Below are positions 1-38,796 of a stretch of 38,796 bases of DNA, one piece after another (position 1 is the first letter of the stretch; the number at the start of each line of letters is the position of its first letter). The DNA comes from Halorussus marinus (GTDB lineage: Archaea > Halobacteriota > Halobacteria > Halobacteriales > Haladaptataceae): contig NZ_SBIV01000014.1 in assembly GCF_004765795.1 (NCBI RefSeq), positions 1 to 38,796 on the forward strand, in the 5' to 3' direction. A model generated the notes under the pieces. That model was not told where the DNA came from. It was given only the letters and a program-made list of their open reading frames with translations, and did no database searches. The position numbers were made by a program, and so were the translations under genes.

Positions 1-126
1 TTTGAGCAACCGGTACAACCTCCCCGATGAAGCGGGAGATTTGCGTCATGGTCAACGGAACTCTCCCGCTTCAACTCCTTTGATTTAGCGGCCTACCTCT
101 CTGCCGTATGGCGATTCAACACAGCC
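1..126 (-). mobile_element. Left edge: 5' end of an IS, reading outward
   Basis: Bases 1-126 are the exact reverse complement of 38670-38795. Read on the minus strand, the segment runs from the IS tip (position 126) through a short leader to an ATG whose product begins MTQISRFIGEVVPVAQ. This resembles the N-terminus of haloarchaeal IS5-group transposases as I remember them; family assignment is an inference. The element leaves the window, so only its end is seen. The tip lies 11 bases before the ATG of the TraG-like gene, so the insertion separated that gene from its native upstream region. The 8 bases beside this tip differ from those beside the right tip, so the two ends are not one insertion event. 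Confidence 0.85.
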
Positions 127-137
127 CACTCAGGAGG

Positions 138-3100
138 ATGACTGAACAGACCCCGTCAGAAATCCCGTCAGTGGCTAACGGCGACGAGTACATCCGGATC
201 ACTCCCTCCCGGAGCGATCTCGCGCCGGAGACCGTAGTCCGTCAACTGGCCGGCCTCCACGGCCTTGACGCTGGCAACGACGGACTTCTCGCAAGTATCG
301 GTCCCTTCGGCGATCCGCCACCGGTGTTCGAGTTCCTCGCAGTGAGTGAGGGGGCAGACGAGCCGGTCGAGTTCTATTACGGGGCCGACCGCCGGTTAGA
401 TGCCTTCGAAGAACGCCTCCGGACGCTGTATCCTCCGACCGTCACGTTCGAGCGGGTCACCCTTGACTTGGAAACGAAGCTACTCCCATCGACAGCAGAC
501 CCGTCTCAGGACCACAGTGCCGGAGGTGACGATAGCCACGGAATGAACCCCAGGACAGCTGAGGAATTCTCCGGAGACCCGAATTCGGATTCAGAGCCCG
601 TGACTCTCTTCGATTCGACGGGGCAGGAACCGGTCGGTGATGGCGGAAGTGTGCTGTCGGAGAGCACTATGTCGCAGGACGAGGACGAAGTCTTGTTCGA
701 GGCCGATTCGAGTGACGAGTCCACAGCGGCTGGTCCGTCCGACTCCGAACTCGATGCCGATCACCAGCCGGCTCATACGCAACCGACCGTCGATGAGACG
801 ACCCCACTCGGAATCAGTTGGCACGGGCAGGCTACCCGGCGGGAAGACTGGATGACGACACTACCCCAATTCACGAATACGGAAGACGACGATGACGATC
901 ACGCTCGGGCCCCGCTCGCGTCACTCATCGATCAGCTGACCCGGGCCGAACACCCGATCGCGTTCCAGGTACTCTTTCAGCGGAAATCGGACTGGACGCA
1001 CGAGGCACGAGAGCGCCAGCGGAAGCTCCGTGAAGGCGAAGACCGGGTCGTCGACTGGTTCTTCGGAGAACTCCTCGGAAACACAGAGAACGAACCACAG
1101 AGTCCGTCGAACACCGGGCGACAGCGTCGGTATCTCGACATCGGTGGGCGAGAGCGGGTCGAGGCTATCGACGAGAAGGAGCCACAGCACACGTTCACGG
1201 TGAATATGCGGGCACTTTCGCTCGTGACCTCCGACCGACAACGAGAGCGGGTTGACCATCGTCTCGATGATATCGGGTCGGTATTCGATCACCTGAACGG
1301 ACCGCACTATCGGCTCCGACCGAAGCGCATCCGCCGTGGGCTTCGAAAGGGGCGGCGAGCCAAGAAGCACGCCGACCGGGTACTCAACGCTACGTTGGCT
1401 ACCAAGAGCGACTGGCGGAAGACCCGCCCCGATCTCGTCCTCGGGCCGGCTGAGTTGGCGAACTTCGTGGTCGTTCCGCCGGCAACTGACCTCACGACCG
1501 AGGGCGGGCGGGGGTCCGACGCCGAACCCGAGAGCCGGACGCCCCTGCCACTCCCGGCGCAGGACCACATGGATGCGTTCACGGACGCCGGGATGGCGAT
1601 CGGCCGCGGTCTTGGGGAAGACGGTACGCCCACGTCGGAGCCGATGCGGATTCCCCCGCATCTACTTCCGTTCCACGTCGGCCGGTTCGCGAAGAGCGGC
1701 GCCGGCAAATCGGTCGCGCTTGAAAACGACGCCCTCTCGCTGTACGACCAGACGAACGGGCCAGTGTTCATCATCGACTCCAAGGGCGGGAATTTCCCCG
1801 AGAACTATATGCGGGCTCACGCGAAGCGCTTCGGCACCGACGACCTCGAGGAGAACGTCCTCCACTTCTCGGTGCCCGACATCCTGCCTGGCTTCGCGTT
1901 CTTCGACATCACGCCGGCATTGGAGGACGGCGTCCGACGCGTCGACGCGATTCAGGACAAGGCCGACCACTACGAGGAGCTCATCAAGCTCGTGATGGGG
2001 CCGGAGCGGTACGAGGACGCCATCGCCTCGCCGACGCTCATCAAGTACCTCATCAAGGCGATGTACGACGAGGAGTACGGCCTCGAAAACGGACACTTCC
2101 GGCAGGATACAAACTACTTCACCCACGACCAGTTTGAGCAGGCGGTGACCCAGTTCCACGCCGCCGGGCCACCAGATTCGACACCCGAAGATGCACCGCG
2201 AGCCAGCGACCCGCAGGTCGCCGAGAAACTGGAGCGACACCTGCGCTCGAACCCGGCGACGTTCTCGAACGTCGTGAGCGGCATCAGCAACCGGATGGAC
2301 TACATCACGCAGGACGCCCATCTCCGGCGGATCTTCAACAATACCGAGTCACAGTTCGACTTCCGCGACCTCCTCGACGAGGACAAAGTAGTCATCTTCG
2401 ACCTCGGCGATCTCCGCGACGAGGCCGCCCGTGTGATGACCGGCGTCATTCTGACGCAGCTCTACGATGCTGTCAAGCGTCGCGACGGCGACGAGCTGGC
2501 CCGCAAGCCAGACGACTACGTGGCGAACCTGCTCATCGACGAAGCGTCGTCGGTCGTCGTCTCTGATACGCTGACGACGCTGCTCGAAAAGGGGCGGGAG
2601 TTCCGGCTATCCATCGAACTCGTGACGCAGTTCCCTGAGCAGATGAAGGAGGCCGGCAACCGCGAGGTCTACCTGAACGTCCTGAACAACATCGGCAGTC
2701 CGCTCGTCGGGAAGATCGCCGTCGACGCCGACATCGCCGAGGCACTCTCACACGAGGCAATGGATCCCGTCGAGTTCAAGAATCGGATCAGTTCCCTCCC
2801 GCGTGGCGAGTGGATCGCACAGCTCCCGAGCCCAGAGTTCGGCGAAACCGGCCCCGACCCGTTCAGTATCGAACCCCTTCCGATTCCACCCGGTCATCCC
2901 GATAGCGAGCAGCCACTGACCGGGACGCAAGAAGAGCGATTCCAAGACGCCTTGGACGCCGTCCACGAGCATACCCGCGAGGAGTACGGGGTCGCCGGCG
3001 GGACGACCGTGGAGAGCCGTGACGCTGCGACTGACGTCGCTCTGGAGAACGCGGATGACCTACCGTTGGAAGTCGCGATGGCCCGTGCGATTCGCGCCGT

Positions 3101-4508
3101 CCAGCTGTCGAACGACGTACGTGAGACGAACGGCTGGGTCTCCGTCGAGGACGTCGATGAGGAACTGCTCTCGCGCATCGAGGAAGACACCATCGAGGCG
3201 CAGGGCTACGAGACACTACCAGAAGTGAGGGAGGCGTCCTCGCTCATCGAGGTCGATCTCCCGGACGGTGGTTCGTCGGTGCAGTGTCGGCTCACAGACG
3301 AGGGTGAGCAAGCAGCCGCGCCCGACACGTCGACATCACCGACCGGCGGGGGCGAGCACCACGATGCAGTCCTTGAAACGGTCGAGCAATCCCTCGCAAC
3401 TGCGGGGTTCTCCGTGGAGGTCCTCGATCAGAACGGGGAGTCCCGCCCCGATGCCATCGCGACGCATCCGGATCTCGACCGGGAGCTCCAGGTGGAGGTC
3501 GAAACCACCACCCACGTCCGGCCGGCGAAGGTCCTCACGAACCTCCGGAAGGCCCAGGAACAGGAGCGAATCCCGCTGTTCGTCGTCGCAGACCACGACG
3601 ATCAGCCGGCTGACGAGATTGCCGACCGGCTTGCGAAAATCCTCAGCGAGCCGCGAAATCAGCTCTCCTCCGGGGAAACACGGCTGTATACGATGAACCA
3701 CAACGTCACATTCAACGGTGGTGCGCGAGCCGCGGATGGAGTGACGGCCGTCCGACCGGCCACTGGTGGTAGTCGCCACACCCGCTGGTTCGAGCGGGAC
3801 GGTGCGTTCGTCCTCGAGGATAGTGCCGGAGACCAGCACGCCCGGATCGACTCCTTCGACGCTGTGTCGAAAGATCAGTTCCCGGCGACGTACAGCTACG
3901 ACGCCGAGAGCGAGTCATACACCGTCTTTAGGCCGGGAGAACTTCCCGAGTCCTACGAGTCACGTGAGGCGTTCGAAGCGGATTGGGTACCTGTCAAGCG
4001 CCCGTTCGTGCCCAGTACCGACCTACCCGTTCCGGAGTACACGGATGATTCGTATGCGATAGGTGTCATCGAGGATGAGCAGAATCTCGAGCTCTACACT
4101 CGAGACTCTGACGCGACCAAAGACCTTGCTGGGCTCATTGAGGCGATCGAAAACAATGAACTCCATCTGGCAGGTGTGGAGCCAGACGAACCTGCCGATA
4201 AGCAATCTATGAAGCAGGAAGACCACGAGAACGATCCGTTCGGCATCCAAGCATTCGTCCGCGATAGCATCGTTAAATCCGGCGACGGGGTCGTCGCGGT
4301 CGCTGAGGTCTACGATGCGTACGAGCAATATGCGACGGCCGAGGAGTACGAGGTGAAGCCAAAAAACCGGTTCACACGTACGCTTCGCGACCACGTTGCG
4401 TTCGAGCGTGACAAGAAGTGGTTGGACGGTCAGACGCGACGCTGTTACGTCGGAATCGAGCTGGACGACGCCGGCGACCAGGAGGAACCGAATGATGCCA
4501 GTGCGTAG
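138..4508 (+). CDS. TraG/VirB4-like conjugation ATPase with extra C-terminal domains
   Basis: A 1456-residue P-loop ATPase of the HerA/FtsK/TraG type, expected to act at the membrane as coupling protein or motor for plasmid DNA transfer. The N-terminus (EYIRITPSRSDLAPETVV) is followed by an acidic low-complexity linker (about residues 115-245). Walker A is AKSGAGKS at about 518-525 and Walker B is LLIDEAS with D801/E802. After the motor, about 1100-1160 looks like a PD-(D/E)xK nuclease-type fold (VEVETTT), and about 1375-1445 resembles the winged-helix end of P4/D5-type primases (VYDAYEQY...KNRFTRTLR). Both C-terminal readings are inference. An ATG at 108 in the same frame lies inside the IS end, so I prefer ATG 138. 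AGGAGG directly abuts that ATG, too close for a normal ribosome site. The primase gene follows 39 bases later. Confidence 0.8.
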   Translation: MTEQTPSEIPSVANGDEYIRITPSRSDLAPETVVRQLAGLHGLDAGNDGLLASIGPFGDPPPVFEFLAVSEGADEPVEFYYGADRRLDAFEERLRTLYPPTVTFERVTLDLETKLLPSTADPSQDHSAGGDDSHGMNPRTAEEFSGDPNSDSEPVTLFDSTGQEPVGDGGSVLSESTMSQDEDEVLFEADSSDESTAAGPSDSELDADHQPAHTQPTVDETTPLGISWHGQATRREDWMTTLPQFTNTEDDDDDHARAPLASLIDQLTRAEHPIAFQVLFQRKSDWTHEARERQRKLREGEDRVVDWFFGELLGNTENEPQSPSNTGRQRRYLDIGGRERVEAIDEKEPQHTFTVNMRALSLVTSDRQRERVDHRLDDIGSVFDHLNGPHYRLRPKRIRRGLRKGRRAKKHADRVLNATLATKSDWRKTRPDLVLGPAELANFVVVPPATDLTTEGGRGSDAEPESRTPLPLPAQDHMDAFTDAGMAIGRGLGEDGTPTSEPMRIPPHLLPFHVGRFAKSGAGKSVALENDALSLYDQTNGPVFIIDSKGGNFPENYMRAHAKRFGTDDLEENVLHFSVPDILPGFAFFDITPALEDGVRRVDAIQDKADHYEELIKLVMGPERYEDAIASPTLIKYLIKAMYDEEYGLENGHFRQDTNYFTHDQFEQAVTQFHAAGPPDSTPEDAPRASDPQVAEKLERHLRSNPATFSNVVSGISNRMDYITQDAHLRRIFNNTESQFDFRDLLDEDKVVIFDLGDLRDEAARVMTGVILTQLYDAVKRRDGDELARKPDDYVANLLIDEASSVVVSDTLTTLLEKGREFRLSIELVTQFPEQMKEAGNREVYLNVLNNIGSPLVGKIAVDADIAEALSHEAMDPVEFKNRISSLPRGEWIAQLPSPEFGETGPDPFSIEPLPIPPGHPDSEQPLTGTQEERFQDALDAVHEHTREEYGVAGGTTVESRDAATDVALENADDLPLEVAMARAIRAVQLSNDVRETNGWVSVEDVDEELLSRIEEDTIEAQGYETLPEVREASSLIEVDLPDGGSSVQCRLTDEGEQAAAPDTSTSPTGGGEHHDAVLETVEQSLATAGFSVEVLDQNGESRPDAIATHPDLDRELQVEVETTTHVRPAKVLTNLRKAQEQERIPLFVVADHDDQPADEIADRLAKILSEPRNQLSSGETRLYTMNHNVTFNGGARAADGVTAVRPATGGSRHTRWFERDGAFVLEDSAGDQHARIDSFDAVSKDQFPATYSYDAESESYTVFRPGELPESYESREAFEADWVPVKRPFVPSTDLPVPEYTDDSYAIGVIEDEQNLELYTRDSDATKDLAGLIEAIENNELHLAGVEPDEPADKQSMKQEDHENDPFGIQAFVRDSIVKSGDGVVAVAEVYDAYEQYATAEEYEVKPKNRFTRTLRDHVAFERDKKWLDGQTRRCYVGIELDDAGDQEEPNDASA

Positions 4509-8586: not shown

Positions 8587-9056
8587 ACTATACAGTATAT
8601 AAAAGAGGGTGAAAAGCGTTTGTCACCAGAATTTCTTTCACTTTCTTCAGAGTTCGACAGGGCCATTTCGGTTAAATCGTCCGAACAGTTAACCTGACAC
8701 CAGCGACGACCTCCCCTAGACACCAGGTATGCTGAGAGTCGTGCTGAGTCAACAAATCGTAGGACGGCAGCACTAGACACCAGACTCACCGACGAGGGAG
8801 TTCCCGGACAGCCCCCGAAATCTGGTGTCAGGTATTGCTGTCTTGCGATTTGGAGGCGAATTGTGCCACTAGACAGCAGGAAAATCAACCGATATGTGGT
8901 GGGGGTGGCGGCCCAAAGTTATGTTCGCGGCCACCAGGGCCGAGATGCCAGGCCGCTGGCCAAGCGAGAGTAGGCTGCCACCCGGACGATGGCGTGGGGC
9001 GTGGAGGGTGAAGGAGCAGATCGACATCGTGACTGAGAATGGTGACTGTGGCGACT
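8587..9056. other. Non-coding region with iteron-like repeats
   Basis: No convincing gene is seen here. The left part is AT-richer and holds the promoter of the minus-strand 659-residue gene. From 8693 to 8880 there are five copies of a CTRGACACCAG-like repeat (listed separately). The right part (8890-9056) is GC-rich and contains an open 70-codon frame with high Trp/Arg content and no ribosome site, which I do not accept as a gene. Confidence 0.6.
8693..8880. repeat. Five iteron-like repeats, consensus CTRGACACCAG
   Basis: Copies are at 8693-8703 (CCTGACACCAG), 8716-8726 (CTAGACACCAG), 8773-8783 (CTAGACACCAG), 8822-8832 (inverted, reads CCTGACACCAG on the minus strand) and 8869-8879 (CTAGACAGCAG, one change). 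Starts are 23, 57, 49 and 47 bases apart. Such short repeats in a non-coding stretch are typical of iterons at plasmid origins or of regulator sites. No initiator gene lies next to them, so the role is open. Confidence 0.6.
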
Positions 9057-9111
9057 GTTTATTGTGCCCCCGAGTGGGTGCGGGGCGGTTCCTGTGCTGC
9101 CCCTGATTTGT
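9057..9111 (+). promoter_or_regulatory. Switch-hairpin element 1 (before 9112)
   Basis: TATA-like GTTTATTG at 9057-9064 is followed directly by a GC hairpin: arm A (GCCCCCG, from 9066), a loop with GAGTGGGTG, and arm B CGGGGC (9081-9086). A second copy of the A arm, GCCCC at 9099-9103, can pair with GGGGC at 9082-9086 instead. Member of the nine-copy family described in the findings. Confidence 0.55.
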
Positions 9112-9402
9112 ATGTCTGGTCCGGATAGATACGACGATACGGCAGACGATCACGAACGGTTCGAAGCGGAATTGCTCGCTCAGGATCGGGATGCGCGGTC
9201 ACCATCGACGGCGGATCTTGACGACGAGACGGCCCGCCAGCTGGTTCGAGAGCTACTCGATGCCGGGACAGTCACACCGGTCGTCGACCAGCGGCTCCTC
9301 GTTCACGAGCCCAGCAACACAGCGTTCGAATCGATGCAGCAGCTCGCCGTCTTCCACACAGGCTGGACGGCCGCCCGGGACGCCGGCGAGGGTGATGGGT
9401 GA
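9112..9402 (+). CDS. Hypothetical acidic 96-residue protein
   Basis: A 96-residue protein starting MSGPDRYDDTADDHERF. No family is recognised. The sequence is acidic and soluble, with a helical middle (DDETARQLVRELLDAG) followed by VTPVVDQRLLVHEPSNTAF and a C-terminal helix ending GWTAARDAGEGDG. The frame stays open further upstream, but ATG 9112 follows the hairpin element and gives a sensible N-terminus. Its stop overlaps the start of the next gene (TGATG), which indicates translational coupling with the zinc-finger gene at 9402. Confidence 0.65.
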   Translation: MSGPDRYDDTADDHERFEAELLAQDRDARSPSTADLDDETARQLVRELLDAGTVTPVVDQRLLVHEPSNTAFESMQQLAVFHTGWTAARDAGEGDG

Positions 9403-11500: not shown

Positions 11501-12361
11501 ATGTCAAGTAACAACTCGAGTCGCAAGGTCGTTACGGTGGATGAACAGGCATTCGAACGAACCGAAGACGCCGGCGTCGACGAGGACGGCTTCAAGGTCG
11601 TCGACGACAAACCGGAGTTCCGAGCGACGGTTCAGCAGGAAAAGCAGGCGAAGGTGGATTCCAACCACCCAGACGGCATCGTCCAGGACTTCTCGCACCT
11701 GCCCCTCGCGCAGGAAGAGAAGATTCGCGCCCGGGAGGCCGAACTGGACCACATCAGCGCCCAGGCGGAACTCGGCACCCAAGACGGGCGGGCGAAGCGA
11801 ACTCGCAAGGTCGTCACCGAACGGCGACAGCGTAAGCGGGCGGAACGCACCCCGGACCGGACGGATCCGCGAGAGCGTCTCTCCCGGATGGAGCTGGCGA
11901 AGGTGAACCAGGAAGCAGACCGGATGGCACAGCGGCTTCGCACCGGTCACAGTCGGGCGGCCGTCTCGCGGGCGCTCGCAAAGCGGGTCGCCAAGGGGCA
12001 AGACATCACCAAAGCAGTGTTCGACACGATGGATGCACTCAAGGCGGCCCCCGGCGCCATCTGCCCGATCGAGGACGTCCCGGACGTGCAGACGGATGAG
12101 GTGAGCATCGAAGGAGAAGTCGTTCAGCTCTGGGATGCTTCCAGCCGGAAGATCGCTCAAGTGGGCTTGGTCGCGGACGACACCGGGAAAATCAAGTTCA
12201 CCTCGTGGCGAAAATCGGAGCCTGCCTTCGTCCAAGAAGGGGACACCGTCCGAATGCGGGCGGTTAAGAAGAACTGGTACGAGGGACGATGTTCACTCGC
12301 CGTGACCTACGACAGTATGATCGTCTTCCCAGAACGCGACCGCCGCTGGTGGGAGGAGTAG
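11501..12361 (+). CDS. RPA-like single-stranded DNA-binding protein
   Basis: 286 residues from ATG 11501 (MSSNNSSRK). The C-terminal part (about 195-275) is an OB-fold of the archaeal RPA type: VSIEGEVVQLWDASSRKIAQ, GLVADDTGKIKFTSW, then GDTVRMRAVKKNWYEGRCSLAV. The N-terminal two thirds are charged and helical (KRTRKVVTERRQRKRAERT). Expected role: binding single-stranded plasmid DNA during replication, repair or transfer. The frame is open upstream to 11210, but that extension is unlike the rest. TATCTGGAGGATACC just before the ATG holds a GGAGG ribosome site. A terminator hairpin follows the stop. Confidence 0.72.
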   Translation: MSSNNSSRKVVTVDEQAFERTEDAGVDEDGFKVVDDKPEFRATVQQEKQAKVDSNHPDGIVQDFSHLPLAQEEKIRAREAELDHISAQAELGTQDGRAKRTRKVVTERRQRKRAERTPDRTDPRERLSRMELAKVNQEADRMAQRLRTGHSRAAVSRALAKRVAKGQDITKAVFDTMDALKAAPGAICPIEDVPDVQTDEVSIEGEVVQLWDASSRKIAQVGLVADDTGKIKFTSWRKSEPAFVQEGDTVRMRAVKKNWYEGRCSLAVTYDSMIVFPERDRRWWEE

Positions 12362-14906: not shown

Positions 14907-15827
14907 ATGACTACCAGAGACATCTACGAAACTGGCTTCGACGAAGACGTCCAAACAGAGTCGAGCGCTACCCAGTGTCCAGAGTGTGACGGCCGGGTCA
15001 CTACGAATGCGGTCGAAACGATCTGCGAGGACTGTGGACTTGTTATCGAGGAACAACGTATCGATCACGGGCCGGAGTGGCGGGCGTACGATGCAGACGA
15101 GCGCGAGCGAACAGGCGCACCACTCACTACAGCCCGTCACGATCGAGGCATCTCGACCGAGATCGGCCACGGAACCGACGCACACGGGAACGAACTCTCT
15201 GGTCAGAAACGCCGGCAGCTGGCCCGGATGCGACGTGAGCAGACCCGTGGTCGCTGGCGGTCCAAAGCGGAACGGAATCTCGCACACGGGTTGGGCGAGG
15301 TACGCCGGCTGGCGAGTGCGCTCGAGCTCTCTGAGTCGATTCGTGACCAGGCGTGCCAGCTCTTCCGGAGCGCTCAGAGCGAGGATCTGCTTCGAGGCAG
15401 ATCCATCGAAGCCATCGGTGCAGCGAGTATCTACGGTACCTGTCGATGTAACCAACACCCGCTTCTCCTCGAGGATGTCGTCGACGCCGCCCGAGTCGAG
15501 TCCGCTCGTGTCACCAACGCCTACCGAACACTGAATCGCGAATTAGAGCTCCCAGCACCACCAATGCGCCCGACGTCGTTCATTCCACGCCTGATCTCGG
15601 CGCTGGAGTTAGACCACGACATTCGTCGGCGCGCGAACGAACTCGCAGAACGCGCCGAGGGGACAACCCTCACGAACGGCTGTCAGCCATCGGGCGTCGC
15701 GGCCGCCTGTGTCTATCTGGCTGCCCAAGAGCAGGGCGCGTTGATTACCCAATCCACCGTCGCGTCGGCAGCAGAGGTGTCAGTCGTGACGCTCCGAAGC
15801 CGGCGAGACGAACTCCAAGCGATCTGA
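14907..15827 (+). CDS. tfb: Transcription initiation factor TFB
   Basis: 306 residues from ATG 14907 (MTTRDIYETG); ATG 14895 in the same frame adds four residues. The N-terminal zinc ribbon is CPEC...CEDCG, followed by a B-finger/linker stretch (GPEWRAYDADE...RHDRGISTEI). Two cyclin repeats follow: GEVRRLASALELSESIRDQA...IYGTC and ELDHDIRRRANELAE...GVAAACVYLAAQEQG, ending TLRSRRDELQAI. TFB recruits RNA polymerase to TATA-bound TBP. Haloarchaea carry several TFB paralogues, including plasmid ones that can shift promoter choice. The promoter has a dyad next to its TATA box. Some divergence (CQPSGVAAA in place of the usual GRSPxGxAAA) fits an accessory paralogue. Confidence 0.9.
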   Translation: MTTRDIYETGFDEDVQTESSATQCPECDGRVTTNAVETICEDCGLVIEEQRIDHGPEWRAYDADERERTGAPLTTARHDRGISTEIGHGTDAHGNELSGQKRRQLARMRREQTRGRWRSKAERNLAHGLGEVRRLASALELSESIRDQACQLFRSAQSEDLLRGRSIEAIGAASIYGTCRCNQHPLLLEDVVDAARVESARVTNAYRTLNRELELPAPPMRPTSFIPRLISALELDHDIRRRANELAERAEGTTLTNGCQPSGVAAACVYLAAQEQGALITQSTVASAAEVSVVTLRSRRDELQAI

Positions 15828-16090: not shown

Positions 16091-16960
16091 ATGACTGACC
16101 ACAACTCAGACCGAGAGGCGTTCCAACCTGTCGGGGAGGGCGCTCTGGTGCCGGACCCAGCGCTGGATCAGCCAGCAGACGGCCAGCCAAGCCGCCAGCG
16201 TGAAGCCTCGCATTCGGGTGGGTATCCGGACGGAACAACCGACACAGACCGATCCTGTGTCTCCTGTGGCGCATCGATCCCGGCGTCGCAACGAAAATGC
16301 CGGTTCTGTCTCGAACACGAACTTGACGGCGCGTCGGAGTCGGGTGCTGCGAGTTCCGAGCAGACACTGCGTGGTGTGATCCACTTCCTCGTCGAATCGG
16401 GGACGTTCTACGGCGCCGTGGCAAGGGGAGCAGCAGCAGCGACACTTCTCTCGTCAGGTCACGACCAGCCCATCGACGACTGTACGCTCATCTACGATCT
16501 CGACGACGAGCCCGCACCCCAGCTAACCGAGCGCTGGCCTACGCTCCCCGCTGCTACTGAGGTGACCGCAGCGGCTGGCGACGCGTTACTAACAGCGGCC
16601 CGTGAGCGGACAGCGTGGAACGAGAGGAGCGATCGTTCTCAGACGGAGATTCCACGCGTCTATGACGAGCGTGGCCAGGGAATTCGCGATGAGTCGTCCC
16701 TCGAGCACACGCTCGACGACAGCGATCAGCTGTGGATCGTCCCAGCAATCGCTGTGGAAACAGTACCCCGCGAAACGAAATCCTCCAGTACCAGAGCTGA
16801 AATCCCGACCGTAACAGCCCTCGAGTGCCAGCACTGTACGAAAGAAACAGAACATCGCTTCAGTACACGCGAGTCGCTCCCTGACGAGACCTGGACGGGC
16901 CAACCAATCTGGGAGTGCCAAGTGTGTGGCACAGGTCGCTACGGGCCTGCTCCCGAATAG
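16091..16960 (+). CDS. Zinc-ribbon protein with a C-terminal domain shared with 24197
   Basis: 289 residues. The N-terminal 50 residues look disordered. A first zinc site is CVSCGASIPASQRKCRFC (about 57-74). The middle is Ala-rich and helical. At about 195-230 comes IPRVYDERGQGIRDESSL followed by DDSDQLWIVPA. The same block closes the 166-residue protein encoded at 24197 (IPMYDQHAQGIR...LWIVPA), so it is a mobile plasmid domain. A second zinc ribbon, CQHC...CQVCG, ends the protein. No enzyme signature is visible. A strong inverted repeat begins 12 bases after the stop. Confidence 0.7.
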   Translation: MTDHNSDREAFQPVGEGALVPDPALDQPADGQPSRQREASHSGGYPDGTTDTDRSCVSCGASIPASQRKCRFCLEHELDGASESGAASSEQTLRGVIHFLVESGTFYGAVARGAAAATLLSSGHDQPIDDCTLIYDLDDEPAPQLTERWPTLPAATEVTAAAGDALLTAARERTAWNERSDRSQTEIPRVYDERGQGIRDESSLEHTLDDSDQLWIVPAIAVETVPRETKSSSTRAEIPTVTALECQHCTKETEHRFSTRESLPDETWTGQPIWECQVCGTGRYGPAPE

Positions 16961-16972
16961 GGCAGTAGGAAT

Positions 16973-17030
16973 CTCACCGTTTAACCAACAGTCTCCGATG
17001 GAGATGGCTTCTGTTGGTTAACACGGTGAG
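16973..17030. repeat. 20-bp inverted repeat with inner hairpin
   Basis: CTCACCGTTTAACCAACAG (16973-16991) pairs with 17011-17030 with a single bulged base. The loop contains its own hairpin TCTCC-GAT-GGAGA (16992-17004). The core TTAACCAACA recurs as an inverted pair at 31866-31906. Possible roles are a terminator for the gene ending at 16960, a protein-binding site, or the remnant of a small mobile element. Confidence 0.8.
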
Positions 17031-18792: not shown

Positions 18793-18831
18793 TCGTCATC
18801 GCCGTCGACGCCAGGGGCACTTCCAGTGTCG

Positions 18832-18878
18832 GTTTATCGCCCCCCAAGAGGGGTGCGGGGCTTCCCGCGAGTCCAGAC
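18832..18878 (+). promoter_or_regulatory. Switch-hairpin element 2 (before 18879)
   Basis: TATA-like GTTTATCG (18832-18839). Arm A GCCCCCC (18839-18845), loop AAGAGGGGT, arm B GCGGGGC (18855-18861; one C-C mismatch with A). A' CCCGC (18864-18868) can pair with GCGGG (18855-18859). It ends 10 bases before the ATG. Confidence 0.6.
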
Positions 18879-19259
18879 ATGGCGACACTACAAGCTGCGA
18901 CGACGTCAACCGGCGCGATCGTATCGGATCCACAGGCTGTCCGCGAACTCTGTGAGAGCTACTGCTTCGGGACGCTCGACTGGGAGGTCACCGACAAGGG
19001 CGAACTCACCATCTGGGGGTACGATGACTTCGAAGTGTACGAGGCGCGGGAGAACGGCCTCCCGGACTACGAGGGCGGCATCGTGACCCACGAATTCTTG
19101 CGAGAACTTGCCGACCACCTCGAAGCTGACGAGGAACTCGACATCCAGACAGCGGGGTTCACGAAGTGTCGCTTCCCAGTGCTGGCGAAGCGGTACGTCG
19201 TTCGCGACGGCGAAGTCCTCTACGCGGATCTCAGTTCCCCCGAACCAATCGAGGAGTAG
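18879..19259 (+). CDS. Hypothetical 126-residue protein
   Basis: 126 residues, MATLQAATTSTGAIVSDPQA. It looks like a compact alpha/beta protein: AVRELCESYCFGTLDWEVTD, then IWGYDDFEVYEAR, VTHEFLRELADHLEADEEL and CRFPVLAKRYVVRDGEVLY. No family named. It stands behind a switch-hairpin element and is followed by a second such element before the next gene, so it is probably an independent unit. Confidence 0.65.
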   Translation: MATLQAATTSTGAIVSDPQAVRELCESYCFGTLDWEVTDKGELTIWGYDDFEVYEARENGLPDYEGGIVTHEFLRELADHLEADEELDIQTAGFTKCRFPVLAKRYVVRDGEVLYADLSSPEPIEE

Positions 19260-19260
19260 C

Positions 19261-19326
19261 GTTGTTCGTCCCCCGAGAGGGGTGCGGGGCGATCCAGTAG
19301 CGGTCGCCCCGTGAGGTGATTGCTCG
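19261..19326 (+). promoter_or_regulatory. Switch-hairpin element 3 (before 19327)
   Basis: GTTGTTCG (19261-19268), arm A CCCCG (19271-19275), loop AGAGGGGTG, arm B CGGGG (19285-19289). GGGGCGA (19286-19292) can instead pair with A' TCGCCCC (19304-19310). GTGAGGTGA, with a possible ribosome site, follows A' directly, so the second hairpin could affect translation. Confidence 0.65.
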
Positions 19327-19989
19327 ATGGGCCACCGCGCACTCGTTGCGTACGAACGCACAGACGGACAGTACACGCTCCACTACAGCCATTGGGGCGC
19401 AGCGAACCTCAAGCTCAAGCACCGAATTTCGGCTGAGTCGCCGTTCGGTGGCGACGACACCAACTCCAAGTGGGCGAAACAGCTGCTGGCTGAACTGGCC
19501 GATGGCCTCGAGGCAGATGCGGTCGACGGCTACCTCGCTGACGAGGATCGACCGTCGACGGTCGTCGAGCCGAAGCCCCGCGCCACCGGGCTCACCCTCG
19601 ACGAGATCATCGCTGACCATCTCGACTACCTCCACCACGAGGCGTTCTACGTGGTGTCACCGACCTTCGAGGTGACCGCCTACCGGACGCTGTGGTTCGG
19701 CCTGCAGTACGATTCAGAGACAATCGACAACGGTGAGACGGTCGGGAACGGGGCGCTCGCGACCGTTCGGTGGCACGACGGCGAGCCGGTCGGCGACGGC
19801 CATCTGAAGGGGCAGTTCCGGGCGCTGAAGGACGTCGTCGGCGATATGGTCGACAAGGGGGTGTTCACGCCGTCGACGGCGAGGCAGTACCTCAAGCAGA
19901 AACTCGGCGAGTGGGTCGGCGAGCGCCAGGAACTGCGCATCCCTGGTGGTGAATCACCGTCGAAAACTGCGTCAGTCGACCGATTATAA
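19327..19989 (+). CDS. DUF6735-like haloarchaeal protein
   Basis: 220 residues beginning MGHRALVAYERTDGQYTLHY followed by SHWGAANLKLKHRIS. This start is typical of a haloarchaeal plasmid family that I recall as DUF6735; function unknown. The middle has LDYLHHEAFYVVSPTFEVTA and YRTLWFGLQYDSE. The C-terminal helical part (GQFRALKDVVGDMVDKGVFT, then ARQYLKQKLGEWVGERQEL) is basic and could bind DNA or a partner. It sits behind switch-hairpin element 3. Confidence 0.6.
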   Translation: MGHRALVAYERTDGQYTLHYSHWGAANLKLKHRISAESPFGGDDTNSKWAKQLLAELADGLEADAVDGYLADEDRPSTVVEPKPRATGLTLDEIIADHLDYLHHEAFYVVSPTFEVTAYRTLWFGLQYDSETIDNGETVGNGALATVRWHDGEPVGDGHLKGQFRALKDVVGDMVDKGVFTPSTARQYLKQKLGEWVGERQELRIPGGESPSKTASVDRL

Positions 19990-24088: not shown

Positions 24089-24109
24089 ACGCGGTCTCCC
24101 GAAGCGAGG

Positions 24110-24196
24110 TTTTTCGAGCGCCGGCGATGGGTGCCGGCGCACCGAGCAGACAGCGCCGAGCGGCGCCCGGTGAGTCGGCACTCCGAGGTGAACCAG
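24110..24196 (+). promoter_or_regulatory. Switch-hairpin element 4 (before 24197)
   Basis: GTTTTTCG (24109-24116), arm A GCGCCGGC (24118-24125), loop GATGGGT, arm B GCCGGCGC (24133-24140), perfect 8 bp. A' GCGCCG (24153-24158) can pair with CGGCGC of B. This copy ends further from its ATG than the others. A ribosome-site-like GAGGTGA lies about 10 bases before ATG 24197. Confidence 0.6.
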
Positions 24197-24697
24197 ATGC
24201 ATATGGTCATCTACGCGCTGGTGGAAGCACCGACACAGCACGACGCCCTGGTCGAGGGGAAAGCAGTCTTCGACCGTCTCGTCGGCGCGAATCCCCACGG
24301 CTGCGCCGTGTTTGATTACTACGTCACGTTCGATGAAGACGACACGACGGTCGCCGGGAAGGCCCGCTGGGGTGACCTGCCGACGGCGGCCCCCATCAAC
24401 TCAGAGGAGGGCGGTGAACTGCTCGACCGGGCTTGGAAGGCCACGAAAGAGGAGTTTCAGCGGAATCTCGACCGCGTGAAGGAGGCGCTCGACGAGCTCA
24501 GCGACGAGGCGATCATGCGCGACGAGGACCTCGCCCGCCACGCGTTCCACCAGGTCGGCGCGTACGAAGGGCCCTCAATCCCGATGTACGACCAGCACGC
24601 CCAGGGGATTCGGCATCGAGGCCAGCTCGACCGAGTCCTCGAGGAAGACGAGGACAGCCAGACGCTCTGGATCGTCCCCGCAGACGTTCATTTCTGA
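24197..24697 (+). CDS. 166-residue plasmid protein with shared C-terminal block
   Basis: ATG 24197 (MHMVIYALVEAPTQHDALVE); ATG 24203 is an alternative. The N-terminal part looks like a ferredoxin-like alpha/beta fold (VIYALVEAPTQHDALVEGKA, VFDYYVTFDEDDT). The C-terminal block IPMYDQHAQGIRHRGQL with DSQTLWIVPADVHF matches the 16091 protein closely. No known activity. It lies behind switch-hairpin element 4; the next gene starts 6 bases after the stop. Confidence 0.65.
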   Translation: MHMVIYALVEAPTQHDALVEGKAVFDRLVGANPHGCAVFDYYVTFDEDDTTVAGKARWGDLPTAAPINSEEGGELLDRAWKATKEEFQRNLDRVKEALDELSDEAIMRDEDLARHAFHQVGAYEGPSIPMYDQHAQGIRHRGQLDRVLEEDEDSQTLWIVPADVHF

Positions 24698-25537: not shown

Positions 25538-25564
25538 CGGATTGCAATCCCGCTACGACTGTGT

Positions 25565-25619
25565 GGTGTTGTTTCAGCGCCGGCGATGGGTGCCGGCGCA
25601 CACGCGCCGGCGAGTACCG
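25565..25619 (+). promoter_or_regulatory. Switch-hairpin element 6 (before 25620)
   Basis: GTGTTGTTTC (from 25566), arm A GCGCCGGC (25577-25584), loop GATGGGT, arm B GCCGGCGC (25592-25599), spacer ACAC, A' GCGCCGGC (25604-25611), then GAGTACCG and the ATG. Both hairpins are perfect 8-bp stems sharing B. It is one of the two clearest copies. Confidence 0.7.
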
Positions 25620-26204
25620 ATGTCGACACGGAGCCAACTCCGATTCGTCCAACGAGTCGAACAGACCGGTGAGACAGATGGCAGCGCCGACCGCGTCGCG
25701 CAGGTGTACCGGCATTCGGACGGGTATCCCGGGAGCGTCCTCCGGGATCTCGCACAACTGAAAGAGCTGCTCGATGCGACCCGCGCAGAGCGTGGCCCGG
25801 GCTACACGGCGGCGACCTTCGTGTTCCTCGACAAGCTCTCGACGGTCGACCTCTACCTGGATGGCGACCCAGAGCGAACGATCGACGCGGCTCAGCCAGC
25901 GGATCTCCTCGAGCCGTCCAATATGGAGCACCTGGACCAGCCGCTGTTCCTGCTGGGCCACGGCGTCGAGAATCCGGCCGACGGCATCCACGGCGACGAG
26001 GAGTACCTCTACGTCGTCGAACTCCCGACGGAGAACCCGTTCGACGAGCCGACCGAGTGGACAGTCAAAGTGAGCGGTCACTCCGCGTTCCCCCGCTGGG
26101 ACGGCCCGACCGACGAGGCCTTCGAGCAGGCGAGCTGGCAGTTCCACGGGTCGCTCGAGGACGCGCTCGCAGAACTGGTCCGGGACGAAGCAGTCGTCAA
26201 GTAA
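25620..26204 (+). CDS. Hypothetical 194-residue protein
   Basis: MSTRSQLRFVQRVEQTGETD. It has a first helical region (VLRDLAQLKELLDATRAERG) followed by a beta-rich core (TAATFVFLDKLSTVDLYLDG; EYLYVVELPTENPF; WTVKVSGHS) and a helical end. A fold with helix and sheet of this type is common in haloarchaeal plasmid proteins but I have no name for it. It has its own switch-hairpin element. The next gene has a separate leaderless promoter. Confidence 0.65.
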   Translation: MSTRSQLRFVQRVEQTGETDGSADRVAQVYRHSDGYPGSVLRDLAQLKELLDATRAERGPGYTAATFVFLDKLSTVDLYLDGDPERTIDAAQPADLLEPSNMEHLDQPLFLLGHGVENPADGIHGDEEYLYVVELPTENPFDEPTEWTVKVSGHSAFPRWDGPTDEAFEQASWQFHGSLEDALAELVRDEAVVK

Positions 26205-28600: not shown

Positions 28601-28682
28601 CCGAATGTAATTGGATAGTATCTTGCTATAACTAAATACGTTGCCGACGGTGGCGACGAAGTCCCGACGACGTGAGCGCTGG

Positions 28683-28737
28683 TGTTGTTGTTCGTCCCGC
28701 AAGGGGCGCGGGACGACACATTCGTCCCGGGTTACCG
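28683..28737 (+). promoter_or_regulatory. Switch-hairpin element 7 (before 28738)
   Basis: GTTGTTGTTCG (about 28684-28694), arm A TCGTCCCGC (28692-28700), loop AAGGGGC, arm B GCGGGACGA (28708-28716), a perfect 9-bp stem. CGGGACGA (28709-28716) can instead pair with A' TCGTCCCG (28722-28729), also perfect. GGTTACCG and the ATG follow. Confidence 0.7.
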
Positions 28738-29735: not shown

Positions 29736-29761
29736 GGACGGTGAGGGCGTTTCCGGCTCTG

Positions 29762-29813
29762 TTTGTAGAACCCCCGAGAGGGGTGCGGGGGTCACCACTC
29801 CCGCAACGTACCG
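29762..29813 (+). promoter_or_regulatory. Switch-hairpin element 8 (before 29814)
   Basis: GTTTGTAG (29762-29769), arm A ACCCCCG (29771-29777), loop AGAGGGGTG, arm B CGGGGGT (29787-29793), perfect 7 bp. GCGGG (29786-29790) can instead pair with A' CCCGC (29801-29805). AACGTACCG and the ATG follow. Confidence 0.7.
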
Positions 29814-30500
29814 ATGAACGGGAACGCCCGACGCACCACGTCGAACGTAGTCCAGACAGAAGCGCTCGCTAACCGTCGCGACGACTCCGTCGAATACGTC
29901 GGCTTTCGCATCGACGGCCAGGCCGTCGTTCTGAATCTCTCCGAACACCAGCGTCTCACCCCGGATCGAAGTCTCGATCTGGTCAACCACAGCCCGACAG
30001 GCTTCGAGTGGGGATACGCTGGAAGCGGGCCCGCACAGCTCGCCTGTGGGCTCCTCCTCGACTACTACAACGACGCCCAGATCGCGAGAGAACACTACAT
30101 TGGGTTCCGGAATTGCGTGATCAGCCAGCTCGAGTGTGACGGCCCGGCGGCGTGCTGGCACCTCACCGGCGAAGAAATCGACGCGGCGATGGCGACGATC
30201 GCCGACGACGTCGTCGCCCTTCCCGACGGCGGGGGGCCGTCACCGACACTCCCCGAGAACTGGCGAACGGTCACTCGCCCTGACCGGCGAGTCTTCCAGC
30301 GGGCTGATCGCGACCACTACATCGTGCTTGGGGAGGGAACCGACGGCTGGCTGGCCGTCCTCTGTAATCAGGGCGATCGCGCCTATCCGGCACCCCTGGC
30401 GAGCCGGACGGTTTCGGACGATGCCGATGTCGAGCAGGCCATCCGGGCCCTGGTCGACGAGAGCAACAACCTCATCGAGCCACCGGAGGGGGAGTGCTGA
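29814..30500 (+). CDS. DUF6166 family protein with C-terminal extension
   Basis: 228 residues. The N-terminal domain (about 20-125) is DUF6166: VEYVGFRIDGQAVVLNLSEH, then LDLVNHSPTGFEWGYAGSGP and AQLACGLLLDYYNDAQIARE. The function of DUF6166 is unknown; it is typical of plasmids and phages. The C-terminal 100 residues (RTVTRPDRRVFQRADRDHYI...WLAVLCNQGD) form a second beta-rich domain. It follows element 8 and overlaps the next small gene by one base (TGATG). It heads a chain of overlapping genes to 31832. Confidence 0.72.
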   Translation: MNGNARRTTSNVVQTEALANRRDDSVEYVGFRIDGQAVVLNLSEHQRLTPDRSLDLVNHSPTGFEWGYAGSGPAQLACGLLLDYYNDAQIAREHYIGFRNCVISQLECDGPAACWHLTGEEIDAAMATIADDVVALPDGGGPSPTLPENWRTVTRPDRRVFQRADRDHYIVLGEGTDGWLAVLCNQGDRAYPAPLASRTVSDDADVEQAIRALVDESNNLIEPPEGEC

Positions 30501-30631
30501 TGGAGACAATTCGGCTGTTACGAGCCACCCACCAGCTGCTCGAACGCGGGGTCGAGGCGCTCGAGAAAATCGGTCGCGAACTGGAGCGGTACAACGACTG
30601 GCAAGAGCAGACTGACGGCACCGACTCGTGA
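30500..30631 (+). CDS. 43-residue small helical protein
   Basis: ATG 30500 overlaps the preceding stop by one base (TGATG). The product METIRLLRATHQLLERGVEA continues with LEKIGRELERYNDWQEQ, an amphipathic helix that could form a coiled coil. The stop overlaps the GTG start of the next gene (GTGA), so the ORF lies exactly in a coupled chain, which supports it as real. Confidence 0.5.
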   Translation: METIRLLRATHQLLERGVEALEKIGRELERYNDWQEQTDGTDS

Positions 30632-31293
30632 CTCAGACACGTTCTCCCGGCCAGCGGCGGAGTACCGGGTTCCAGTACACGCGCACTCCCGAGGGGTGCT
30701 CGTGTCCCATTCATCGCGACGGCCAGCCGGTCACGGCGCCGCTCGGCCTGCGGTTCGCAGAGCGCGTCCATATCGAATCGATCCCACGGCACGTCGCCGG
30801 CGCGATCTACGAAGCCCATCATTCCTATATGGACAGTGTCCCGCGGACGAACCTCGTTCATCACGGGCTCTGTTACCAGGACCAGCTACTGGGTGCGATT
30901 ACGTGGCGCTATCCACTGATTCGCTCGCTGGACTACGACGGCACGCGATACGAGGGTGACGAGATCGTCGAGGCAGCACGGATCTGCATCGGCGTCGACT
31001 TCCCGAATCTCGCCTCCGCCGCCCTCGCCCGGTCGATGGAACGATTCGTGCGTCGGCACGGTCGGCGGCGAGGCGTTCGCCTTCTGCTGACGTTCGTGCG
31101 AGCTGACTTCGACGGCTCGATGATTAAAGCGCTCAGAGACAAGGGCTGGCACTGCGCCGGGAAAACGGAACCCGGACAGGCAGGTAACCGGCCCGACAAG
31201 CAAATCCGAGAGCGGCCGAAGTGGCGGTTCCTCTGTGAAGTTCCTGATGAGTCTGAGCGGGAACAGTCCTCACTCGGACGGTGGGCTCCGTGA
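30628..31293 (+). CDS. Candidate Mom-like (GNAT-fold) DNA modification protein
   Basis: 221 residues, start GTG 30628 overlapping the preceding stop (GTGA). The sequence HVAGAIYEAHHSYMDSVPRT, then HGLCYQDQLLGAITWRYPLI, IGVDFPNLASAALARSMERF and RGVRLLLTFVRADFDGSMIK has the order of a GNAT-type acyl transferase. It resembles the phage Mu Mom family (adenine carbamoyl-methylation) or related Gp37-like proteins. In Mom the His/Tyr/Asp set lies in comparable places. This is pattern recognition, not proof. Such a modification would protect plasmid DNA from host restriction. Confidence 0.5.
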   Translation: MTQTRSPGQRRSTGFQYTRTPEGCSCPIHRDGQPVTAPLGLRFAERVHIESIPRHVAGAIYEAHHSYMDSVPRTNLVHHGLCYQDQLLGAITWRYPLIRSLDYDGTRYEGDEIVEAARICIGVDFPNLASAALARSMERFVRRHGRRRGVRLLLTFVRADFDGSMIKALRDKGWHCAGKTEPGQAGNRPDKQIRERPKWRFLCEVPDESEREQSSLGRWAP

Positions 31294-31865: not shown

Positions 31866-31906
31866 TTAACCAACAGACAGCCGCTTCCTAGGTTAGTGTT
31901 GGTTAA
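31866..31906. repeat. Inverted repeat with TTAACCAACA arms
   Basis: TTAACCAACA (31866-31875) and its exact reverse complement TGTTGGTTAA (31897-31906), 21 bases apart. The same 10-base core forms the inverted repeat at 16973-17030. Here it lies after the operon end (31832) and just before element 9. Confidence 0.75.
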
Positions 31907-31910
31907 CGTG

Positions 31911-31953
31911 GTGTTGTTGTTGCGCCCGGCAGAGGGGCGCAGGGCGCGAGACG
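31911..31953 (+). promoter_or_regulatory. Switch-hairpin element 9 (before 31954)
   Basis: GTGTTGTTGTTG (from 31911), arm A TGCGCCC (31921-31927). It can pair with GGGCGCA (31935-31941), or as GCGCCC with GGGCGC (31942-31947). Here two 3' arms compete for one 5' arm, the mirror of the other copies. GAGGGGCG lies between the arms. The ATG follows 6 bases after the second 3' arm. Confidence 0.55.
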
Positions 31954-33159
31954 ATGCAGGCAGCCGTCGATGAGCGTTCCTGCGTCGAGGTGACTACGAT
32001 GAAAGACCCAGAGTCGAGAACCATCTTCGCAGGCGTCGATGGACGTACCGACACCGAACTACCCGAGTGGTATCGTCAGCGTCACGGCGGCAAAGACACC
32101 GTGAGCTTCGCTGAGGCGATCCGCGACCTCCCGCAGGCCGTCGAGACGACCGTGGCGTACCAGAATCCGTACACCGACGAGTGGGTCGAGACGGAGCGGT
32201 TCAACGCGCTCGTCGAGCCGAGTCGCGCTCGAGAGCAGGCCCGTGAGGAGGACGCCGAAACGGATTCTTTGTTCCATATTCCGACCGACTCGTACTCGAT
32301 CATCAACCCGGTCGACGTCTACGGCCCTCTGGAGGAGGTCCTTCGGGAGGAGACTATCGACCGAACGCCGCTGGGTGACGTGATGTTCGGCGAGATTCGT
32401 CGCTACCGGGGCGGCGGCGAGGTCCATATGGACATCATGTTCGACGGCCTCGAAGTGCGCCTTCCCGGCCGGTCGGACCCGATCACGATGGGCGTCACGT
32501 CGGGCTACGACTTCTTCGGTGAGCACGCCGTCTACGTCGAGGGGTTCGCCCAGGACGGGTACTGTTCAAATACGATGCGTTCGCTCACCGACAAGGAGGT
32601 CATCAAACACGTCGGCGACGTGCGGAACTTCCGCACCTGGTGGGAGGAGCTTCTCGCACAGGTCGAACTCGTCGCCGACGACCTATTCGAGTTCATCCGG
32701 GACGCCCAGGACATCGACCTCGACTTCTCGGAGCTCCCGTTCACCGTCACGGAGTTTTACAGTCTTCTGGGCTTCCCGGACTACCTGGCCGAGCGCGCTG
32801 CGAGTGATGCGGAGGCCAACGCGACCTCCCCCGTCGAGATCGATATGTGGACGCTGCATTCCGGCGCCACGTACGCGCTCACCCACTTCTTCCAAGGCAA
32901 GGAGGGTGCGTCGCTGGACGGCTACGTTCGCACGGCCAACGACATCCTGTTCAACCCGGAGGGCACCATCGAGCGCGTCGAACGCGCTTACGAGGAGGAG
33001 CTGGAGACAGACGGCGATGACGGGTCGCAGGCGTCGCTCGCCGGCGAGCGCGCGCTCGCGAGCATCGAGCGCATCAGCGACGATCTGCAAGAGAAGGTCA
33101 ACCAGTTCGAGGAGCGCGAGGACGCGCTTCGTGAGCGGTTCCAAGATGCCATGAGCTGA
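31954..33159 (+). CDS. DUF932-like plasmid protein
   Basis: 401 residues from ATG 31954; ATG 31999 (MKDPESRTIF) is also plausible. The middle follows the pattern of DUF932/phage-plasmid proteins of the TIGR03299 type: YSIINPVDVYGPLEEVLREE, then DVMFGEIRRYRGGGEVHMDI, SGYDFFGEHAVYVEGFAQDG and CSNTMRS. The C-terminal part is helical and ends in a coiled coil (ERISDDLQEKVNQFEEREDA). Members are common on conjugative and phage-like elements; the role is unknown. It lies behind element 9 and the TTAACCAACA repeat. Confidence 0.65.
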   Translation: MQAAVDERSCVEVTTMKDPESRTIFAGVDGRTDTELPEWYRQRHGGKDTVSFAEAIRDLPQAVETTVAYQNPYTDEWVETERFNALVEPSRAREQAREEDAETDSLFHIPTDSYSIINPVDVYGPLEEVLREETIDRTPLGDVMFGEIRRYRGGGEVHMDIMFDGLEVRLPGRSDPITMGVTSGYDFFGEHAVYVEGFAQDGYCSNTMRSLTDKEVIKHVGDVRNFRTWWEELLAQVELVADDLFEFIRDAQDIDLDFSELPFTVTEFYSLLGFPDYLAERAASDAEANATSPVEIDMWTLHSGATYALTHFFQGKEGASLDGYVRTANDILFNPEGTIERVERAYEEELETDGDDGSQASLAGERALASIERISDDLQEKVNQFEEREDALRERFQDAMS

Positions 33160-38669: not shown

Positions 38670-38796
38670 GGCTGTGTTGAATCGCCATACGGCAGAGAGG
38701 TAGGCCGCTAAATCAAAGGAGTTGAAGCGGGAGAGTTCCGTTGACCATGACGCAAATCTCCCGCTTCATCGGGGAGGTTGTACCGGTTGCTCAAAG
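38670..38796 (+). mobile_element. Right edge: 5' end of an IS, reading outward
   Basis: The mirror of the left edge. The IS tip GGCTGTGTTGAATCGCC starts at 38670, inside the P-type ATPase. A start codon at 38748 opens the transposase frame (MTQISRFIGEVVPVAQ), which is cut by the window edge. Identity with the left copy over 126 bases shows two copies of the same element with 5' ends facing inward. Recombination between them could invert the whole interval. Confidence 0.85.

Follow-up and report, generated by a model that had tools for sequence, protein, structure and literature searches.

Why do several genes on one contig of Halorussus marinus share a T-rich box that runs directly into a GC hairpin, and does this arrangement act in DNA, as part of a promoter, or in RNA? 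The window, by which we mean the whole 38,796-nt stretch analysed (GCF_004765795.1, contig NZ_SBIV01000014.1, positions 1 to 38,796, forward strand), had been read in a first-pass annotation as carrying four such sites, at 9057, 18832, 24109 and 29762. All four were present as described, with box and hairpin adjoining at 9057 (GTTTATTG / TGCCCC..), 18832 (GTTTATC / GCCCC..), 24109 (GTTTTTCGA / GCGCCGGC..) and 29762 (TTTGTAGA / ACCCCCG..). The total proved higher, however: a systematic scan combined with a covariance model gave seven clear copies and one weak one, all on the plus strand, and those at 19256-19293, 25564-25601, 28680-28717 and, weakly, 31909-31949 had been missed. The copies are listed below with their downstream genes and with the alternative partner of each hairpin, a segment before the start codon whose bases could pair with the 3' arm of the hairpin helix (H1).

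9052-9089, plus strand: element copy; alternative partner GCCCC at 9099-9103; downstream gene 9112-9402.
18827-18864, plus strand: element copy, with T-box 18832-18837, H1 5' arm 18839-18843, loop, and H1 3' arm 18857-18861; alternative partner weak (CCGC, 18865-18868).
19256-19293, plus strand: element copy immediately 3' of the preceding gene's stop codon; alternative partner TCGCCCCG at 19304-19311 (8 bp).
19327-19989: DUF6735 gene, downstream of copy 19256-19293.
24105-24142, plus strand: element copy with stem GCGCCGGC/GCCGGCGC; partner GCGCCG at 24153-24158.
24197-24697: gene downstream of copy 24105-24142, with its own Shine-Dalgarno sequence.
25564-25601, plus strand: element copy; alternative partner GCGCCGGC at 25604-25611 (8 bp); downstream gene 25620-26204.
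28680-28717, plus strand: element copy between divergent genes; alternative partner TCGTCCCG at 28722-28729 (8 bp); gene from 28738.
29757-29794, plus strand: element copy; alternative partner ACTCCCGCA at 29797-29805; downstream DUF6166 gene 29814-30500.
31909-31949, plus strand: weak element copy (18.7 bits) before gene 31954-33159, with a TTAACCAACA-type palindrome 5' of the copy.

Each copy consists of a T-rich box (consensus GTTTTT(Y)), a spacer of 0-4 nt, a GC stem and a loop ending in GGGTG (GGGCG in a few), whose consensus, RA[GT]GGGTG, is near-invariant; the core measures about 38 nt, to which the pre-start segment is added. The core pattern was found three times in the window against 0.06 expected, and the covariance model matched the window copies with E values down to 7e-9. 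Immediately 5' of the hairpin, 123 of 127 non-redundant copies have a T-rich 6-mer (at least four T), compared with 3 of 127 at a control position and a background of 4% of random 12-mers from the window. Across the window and the order, the stems vary while the loop stays constant, with CCCCC/GGGGG, GCGCCGGC/GCCGGCGC, GCGCCTGC/GCAGGCGC and GGGCC/GGCCC among the pairs seen. Over 150 aligned matches, 92% of stem cells were paired (71% when shuffled), both sides had changed in six of the seven stem pairs, and the covariation score was 0.462 against 0.120 for shuffled alignments, none of 500 shuffles reaching as high. Because the stem covaries in this way, the hairpin is, on this comparative evidence, a real structure of a single strand, whether RNA or single-stranded DNA. 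Folding energies of single copies were often unremarkable (z +0.2 to -2.5 as RNA, mostly within the shuffles), and the interior mismatches of H1 (five G-T, seven A-C) gave, at these small counts, no G-U preference. The fixed spacing between box and hairpin would also suit an ordinary promoter element, or an inverted repeat bound by a protein, in double-stranded DNA, but arms that change compensatorily around a fixed, asymmetric loop are the opposite of what a double-stranded palindrome would present, and with neither a TATA nor a BRE in evidence we regard such a site as very improbable.

The element extends well beyond this contig. When searched with a covariance model built from nine copies, 24 of the 28 genomes from the source organism's own family contained it, as did 60 of 146 genomes sampled across the order, representing 30 of 57 genera, while genomes sampled from the rest of the phylum, outside the order, gave no match at E 1e-4. 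Most matches fell on plasmid-sized contigs, often many to a plasmid, as in the 28 copies on one contig (G012:C3, its duplicated end region counted once) and the ten on Haloarcula marismortui pNG600, a plasmid with proteins identical or nearly identical to those of the window; some matches in large contigs took the form of single-strand islands. Rfam gave no match at the gathering score in the window, two exact core patterns were not found in viral contigs, and in the literature on haloarchaeal plasmids, RNA motifs and archaeal leading regions we did not find the element described. These comparisons make it a candidate for a widespread cis-regulatory RNA family of haloarchaea, carried mostly on plasmids among the sampled genomes.

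The box had been taken for a possible TATA element, a view that the wider sample did not bear out. In canonical haloarchaeal promoters an A-rich BRE stands 5' of the TATA hexamer, about 27 bp ahead of the start. A canonical match was present in 1 of 127 non-redundant copies, and the place of a BRE is poor in A and rich in G (A makes up 19% there and 30% at the equivalent position of non-element genes). When these 127 copies were anchored on the loop, no conserved TATA or BRE appeared at any fixed distance upstream of the T-tract, and the sole conserved AT-rich stretch was the T-tract itself, at -19 to -13 relative to the anchor. The method is able to see promoters, since non-element genes of the same loci showed an enrichment of A at -34/-33 and of T or A at -30 to -27 before the start codon. 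The spacing of genes points the same way: where the upstream gene is divergent, at least 61 nt always separate it from the box (0 of 21 gaps are shorter), whereas co-directional neighbours come closer than this in 48 of 103 cases, with gaps down to zero or less (p = 1e-5). From this difference, the promoters would seem to be located further upstream than the box, or to be shared through read-through. The divergent gaps likewise argue against the proposal that the hairpin works at DNA level, at the transcription start or ahead of it, as does the second partner of its 3' arm, at -17 to -10 before the start codon, which implies that the arm is transcribed; if this pairing is functional, transcription does not start at the 3' end of the hairpin.

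The evidence for that second partner comes from the genes that follow the element. In 123 of 126 copies the next downstream gene lies on the same strand, and its start codon mostly comes 20-31 nt after the hairpin. Leaders of that length are almost devoid of Shine-Dalgarno sequences (1 of 43 in the main bin) and carry a C-rich segment at about -16 to -11 before the start codon. The 3' arm of the hairpin is complementary to the segment at -17 to -10, which leaves this arm with two possible partners, the 5' arm of H1 or the pre-start segment. In the window the match reaches 8 bp at each of 19304-19311, 25604-25611 and 28722-28729; elsewhere, locus L047 has the stem GGGCC/GGCCCG followed by CGGGCC before the start codon, and L139 has CGTCCCG twice, flanking CGGGACG. 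To control for kinship, we grouped the downstream genes into 23 families, took one member of each and permuted the pre-start segments among families. In this test of related sequences, in which gene starts are predictions, complementarity to a gene's own segment averaged 5.40 against 4.13 for permuted ones (sd 0.24), and none of 2000 permutations scored as high. An independent sample of loci, fetched later and cleared of copies similar to the first set, comprised 29 copies from 13 gene families; here own segments scored 4.83 and permuted ones 4.06 (p = 0.0045), at an agreeing location, -18 to -10. The statistics thus support, through covariation, a second helix near the start codon (H2) that would be mutually exclusive with H1, with the signal weaker in the independent sample.

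Several features of H2 are consistent with pairing in RNA. Its mismatches in the first set were mostly G-T (21 of 25, against 87 of 213 in the control), and both sets together gave 29 of 38 against 117 of 267 (p = 2e-4), whereas in the independent sample alone the G-T preference could not be told apart from that of the control; the excess fits RNA because a G-U wobble is allowed there. The pre-start partner was also stronger in genes without a Shine-Dalgarno sequence of their own (4.60 against 3.27, p = 1e-5). Mean predicted energies of H1 and H2 were -12.8 and -13.9 kcal/mol, and predicted accessibility near the start changed only slightly with or without the 5' arm. Two other candidate functions for the loop were rejected. 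A leader peptide beginning at the loop GTG was dismissed on finding start and stop frames random, and as a hidden Shine-Dalgarno sequence the loop failed on two counts: anti-Shine-Dalgarno pairing energies showed no difference between genes with and without their own (p = 0.35), and the position expected to be A is G in 98%.

We propose, with a probability of roughly 0.55, that box and hairpin together are an RNA element in the 5' leaders of plasmid genes, acting as a bistable translational switch of an establishment regulon; a new archaeal 5'-UTR element is our best reading of the sequence comparisons. In the mRNA, a U-rich tract would be followed by H1 with its near-invariant loop RA[GT]GGGUG, and these would form first as the leader is transcribed. 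The 3' arm could then leave H1 and form H2 with the C-rich pre-start segment (at about -17 to -10), and two mutually exclusive helices of similar predicted stability would make the leader switch-like. As H2 would stand directly before the start codon, the simplest output would be translation, and a candidate trans factor would probably read the U-tract and the loop. We infer that the element is transcribed and that translation is the controlled step, either of the two hairpins being a candidate for the ON state. The same parts could also serve RNA stability or processing: a long read-through transcript would be cleaved at the U-tract, and H1, as a hairpin at the 5' end, would protect the RNA and even out the expression of its genes, with no switching. 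The frequent short co-directional gaps (48 of 103 below 61 nt) and the pairing of a U-tract with a stable hairpin and conserved loop would agree with such a role, which we nevertheless consider unlikely because it leaves the family-specific pre-start partner unexplained.

The proposed switch would have a shared context in the genes around it. The window carries, besides the genes listed above, genes of the conjugation-type module and a candidate origin:

108-4508, plus strand: gene for a TraG/T4CP-like ATPase.
8615-8880: candidate origin (transfer or replication), with (C)TAGACACCAG direct repeats and a 32-nt imperfect inverted repeat.
11501-12361, plus strand: gene for an RPA/SSB-like protein, with a weak Ssb-like OB-fold match.
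14907-15827, plus strand: gene for a plasmid transcription factor B (TFB).

Among the 61 replicons that carry two or more copies of the element, 58 have them all on one strand, and 291 of the 298 copies fall on the majority strand. Neighbouring copies separated by 15 kb or more shared a strand in 29 of 33 cases (p = 1.5e-5), while on three large plasmid contigs about 42% of the predicted genes lay on the minority strand. Only three replicons carried copies on both strands (G053:C2, G000:C7 and NZ_CP039142); in G000:C7 the two clusters resemble co-oriented clusters of G012:C3, which suggests an inversion or a plasmid fusion. Synteny follows the same rule. In nine of the ten loci with both, the TraG-like homologue shares the strand of the element, and in eight it lies upstream of the first element; the sole locus with the gene opposite the elements (L182, G116:C1:1160000-1179999) is on a 3.4-Mb contig. 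The RPA gene, whose relatives are annotated as 'DNA-binding protein' or hypothetical, was on the element strand in 30 of 30 loci, and the TFB gene in 49 of 49, with homologues elsewhere that the element also precedes. Genes led by the element include those for ArdC-like proteins (Pfam ArdcN above cut-off), TFB, DUF6735, DUF6166, DUF6610 and many unknowns: on pNG600 the element at 126843 precedes an ArdC-like gene at 126923, and on Halobacterium salinarum R1 pHS1 the element at 82763-82800 precedes the ArdC-like gene OE_RS10895.

Bacterial leading or establishment regions are marked by anti-restriction genes, including ardC, and SSB genes (PMC11541004, PMC8708921), and by this analogy a leading-region link for the element module appears reasonable. 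The suspected connection to conjugation thus held as far as the single strand per replicon (58/61), the co-oriented TraG-like, RPA and TFB genes and the element-led ArdC-like genes are concerned, but the hairpin-promoter mechanism offered with it did not. As the element precedes many unlinked genes of one module, their co-regulation as establishment or 'leading-region' genes is its most likely role; the genes of this regulon would be expressed as a group, plausibly when the plasmid enters a new cell, as gene content leads us to infer. More tentatively, and with rather more doubt than conviction, archaeal conjugative plasmids might use a dedicated RNA switch to activate anti-restriction and transcription-factor genes at entry, independently of the bacterial Frpo and EGeRS systems.

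The window has further features. The candidate origin, oriT or oriV, lies in a relatively AT-rich gap that separates a minus-strand gene from the first element. Imperfect palindromes (TTAACCAACA...TGTTGGTTAA) at 16981-17021 and 31866-31906 share a motif that on other plasmids, too, precedes several copies of the element and may represent an operator or a promoter site. The gene at 30628-31293, within the element region, weakly matches the Mom DNA-modification family (anti-restriction, phage Mu). The proteins of 16091-16960 and, only partly, 24197-24697 match NCBIfam MBSP1 ('biosurfactant protein 1'), a name unlikely to describe their role here. The 659-aa minus-strand protein gave no Pfam, PHROG or convincing PDB match and had one distant homologue. 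The contig ends in a perfect inverted terminal repeat (1-126 and 38670-38795), whose length of 126 nt suggests a k-mer-sized overlap in the assembly graph rather than a biological end.

A simple RNA regulon of one operon would not on its own account for copies keeping to one strand throughout a replicon, and the element may have a role in single-stranded DNA besides that in RNA. One such role would be that of an Frpo analogue: the hairpin would form on the single strand as it enters the cell, and transcription from a structure-dependent promoter located at the T-box would activate leading-region genes. Strand uniformity, the TraG-like ATPase, RPA and ArdC-like genes of the module and the lack of a conserved conventional promoter at a fixed upstream distance would all be in keeping with it, but the box does not qualify as a TATA, no BRE accompanies it, the pre-start partner of the 3' arm implies that this arm is transcribed, and the hairpin, unlike Frpo, contains no paired promoter elements (PMC9849209). 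Only the unpaired T-tract is AT-rich, the stem being almost wholly GC, so folding of the strand would rebuild no core promoter. Moreover, an Frpo-type promoter requires that the entering strand be the template strand of the genes, and transfer from 8615-8880 through the cluster would bring in the coding strand, useless as a template. We consider this mechanism quite unlikely.

Oligo-T tracts can terminate archaeal transcription, and the element might on that ground be thought to stop or attenuate upstream transcripts, keeping the downstream gene silent except after transfer. A parallel is EGeRS1, which stands in multiple copies before establishment genes, including ardC, is promoterless and blocks read-through (PMC8708921). 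The T-tract of the haloarchaeal element is short, however, and lies 5' rather than 3' of the hairpin, and the T-run that follows the hairpin in an intrinsic terminator was found in only 4 of 127 copies, which leaves a blocker of this kind improbable.

How haloarchaeal plasmids enter and settle in a new cell is largely unexplained, and the literature that we searched yielded no leading-region regulon from archaea. In roughly half of the haloarchaeal genera sampled, the element marks a candidate regulon and links it to TraG-like, RPA, TFB and ArdC-like genes that share a strand; the base pairs that it predicts can be tested. For dozens of uncharacterised genes, DUF6735, DUF6166 and DUF6610 among them, the element hints at a function, and its search model finds further members of the candidate RNA family.

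Among known systems, the Frpo/ssi sequences of F and ColIb-P9 (PMC9849209, PMC11541004) resemble the element in being strand-specific hairpins upstream of leading-region genes, near SSB and anti-restriction genes; the haloarchaeal copies likewise keep to one strand (58/61) in a putative leading region with RPA-like and ArdC-like genes. Frpo hairpins, however, rebuild -35 and -10 boxes for bacterial RNA polymerase (PMC9849209, PMC11541004), whereas the haloarchaeal element rebuilds no TATA, BRE or promoter and its hairpin appears to be transcribed. With bistable 5'-UTR switches, such as riboswitches and translational attenuators, it shares a conserved, covarying helix in a putative leader and one segment with two exclusive partners, the second near the start codon, but it differs in having no Rfam match and in being restricted, in the genomes sampled, to haloarchaea and mostly to plasmids. 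The nearest functional analogue that we found is not Frpo but EGeRS1 of the pLS20 family of Bacillus, which consists of repeated structured sequences before establishment operons, including ardC, has no recognisable promoter and blocks read-through in its native orientation; since it is the non-template strand that is transferred, EGeRS1 was considered unlikely to act as a single-stranded DNA promoter (PMC8708921). Both elements are conserved, structured and orientation-specific, neither has a recognisable promoter, and both are repeated upstream of establishment genes including ardC. EGeRS1, however, spans 400-600 bp with many inverted repeats and occurs in about five copies (PMC8708921), whereas the haloarchaeal element comprises about 38 nt plus a pre-start segment, reaches up to about 28 copies, and combines a covarying stem with a second partner at the start codon.
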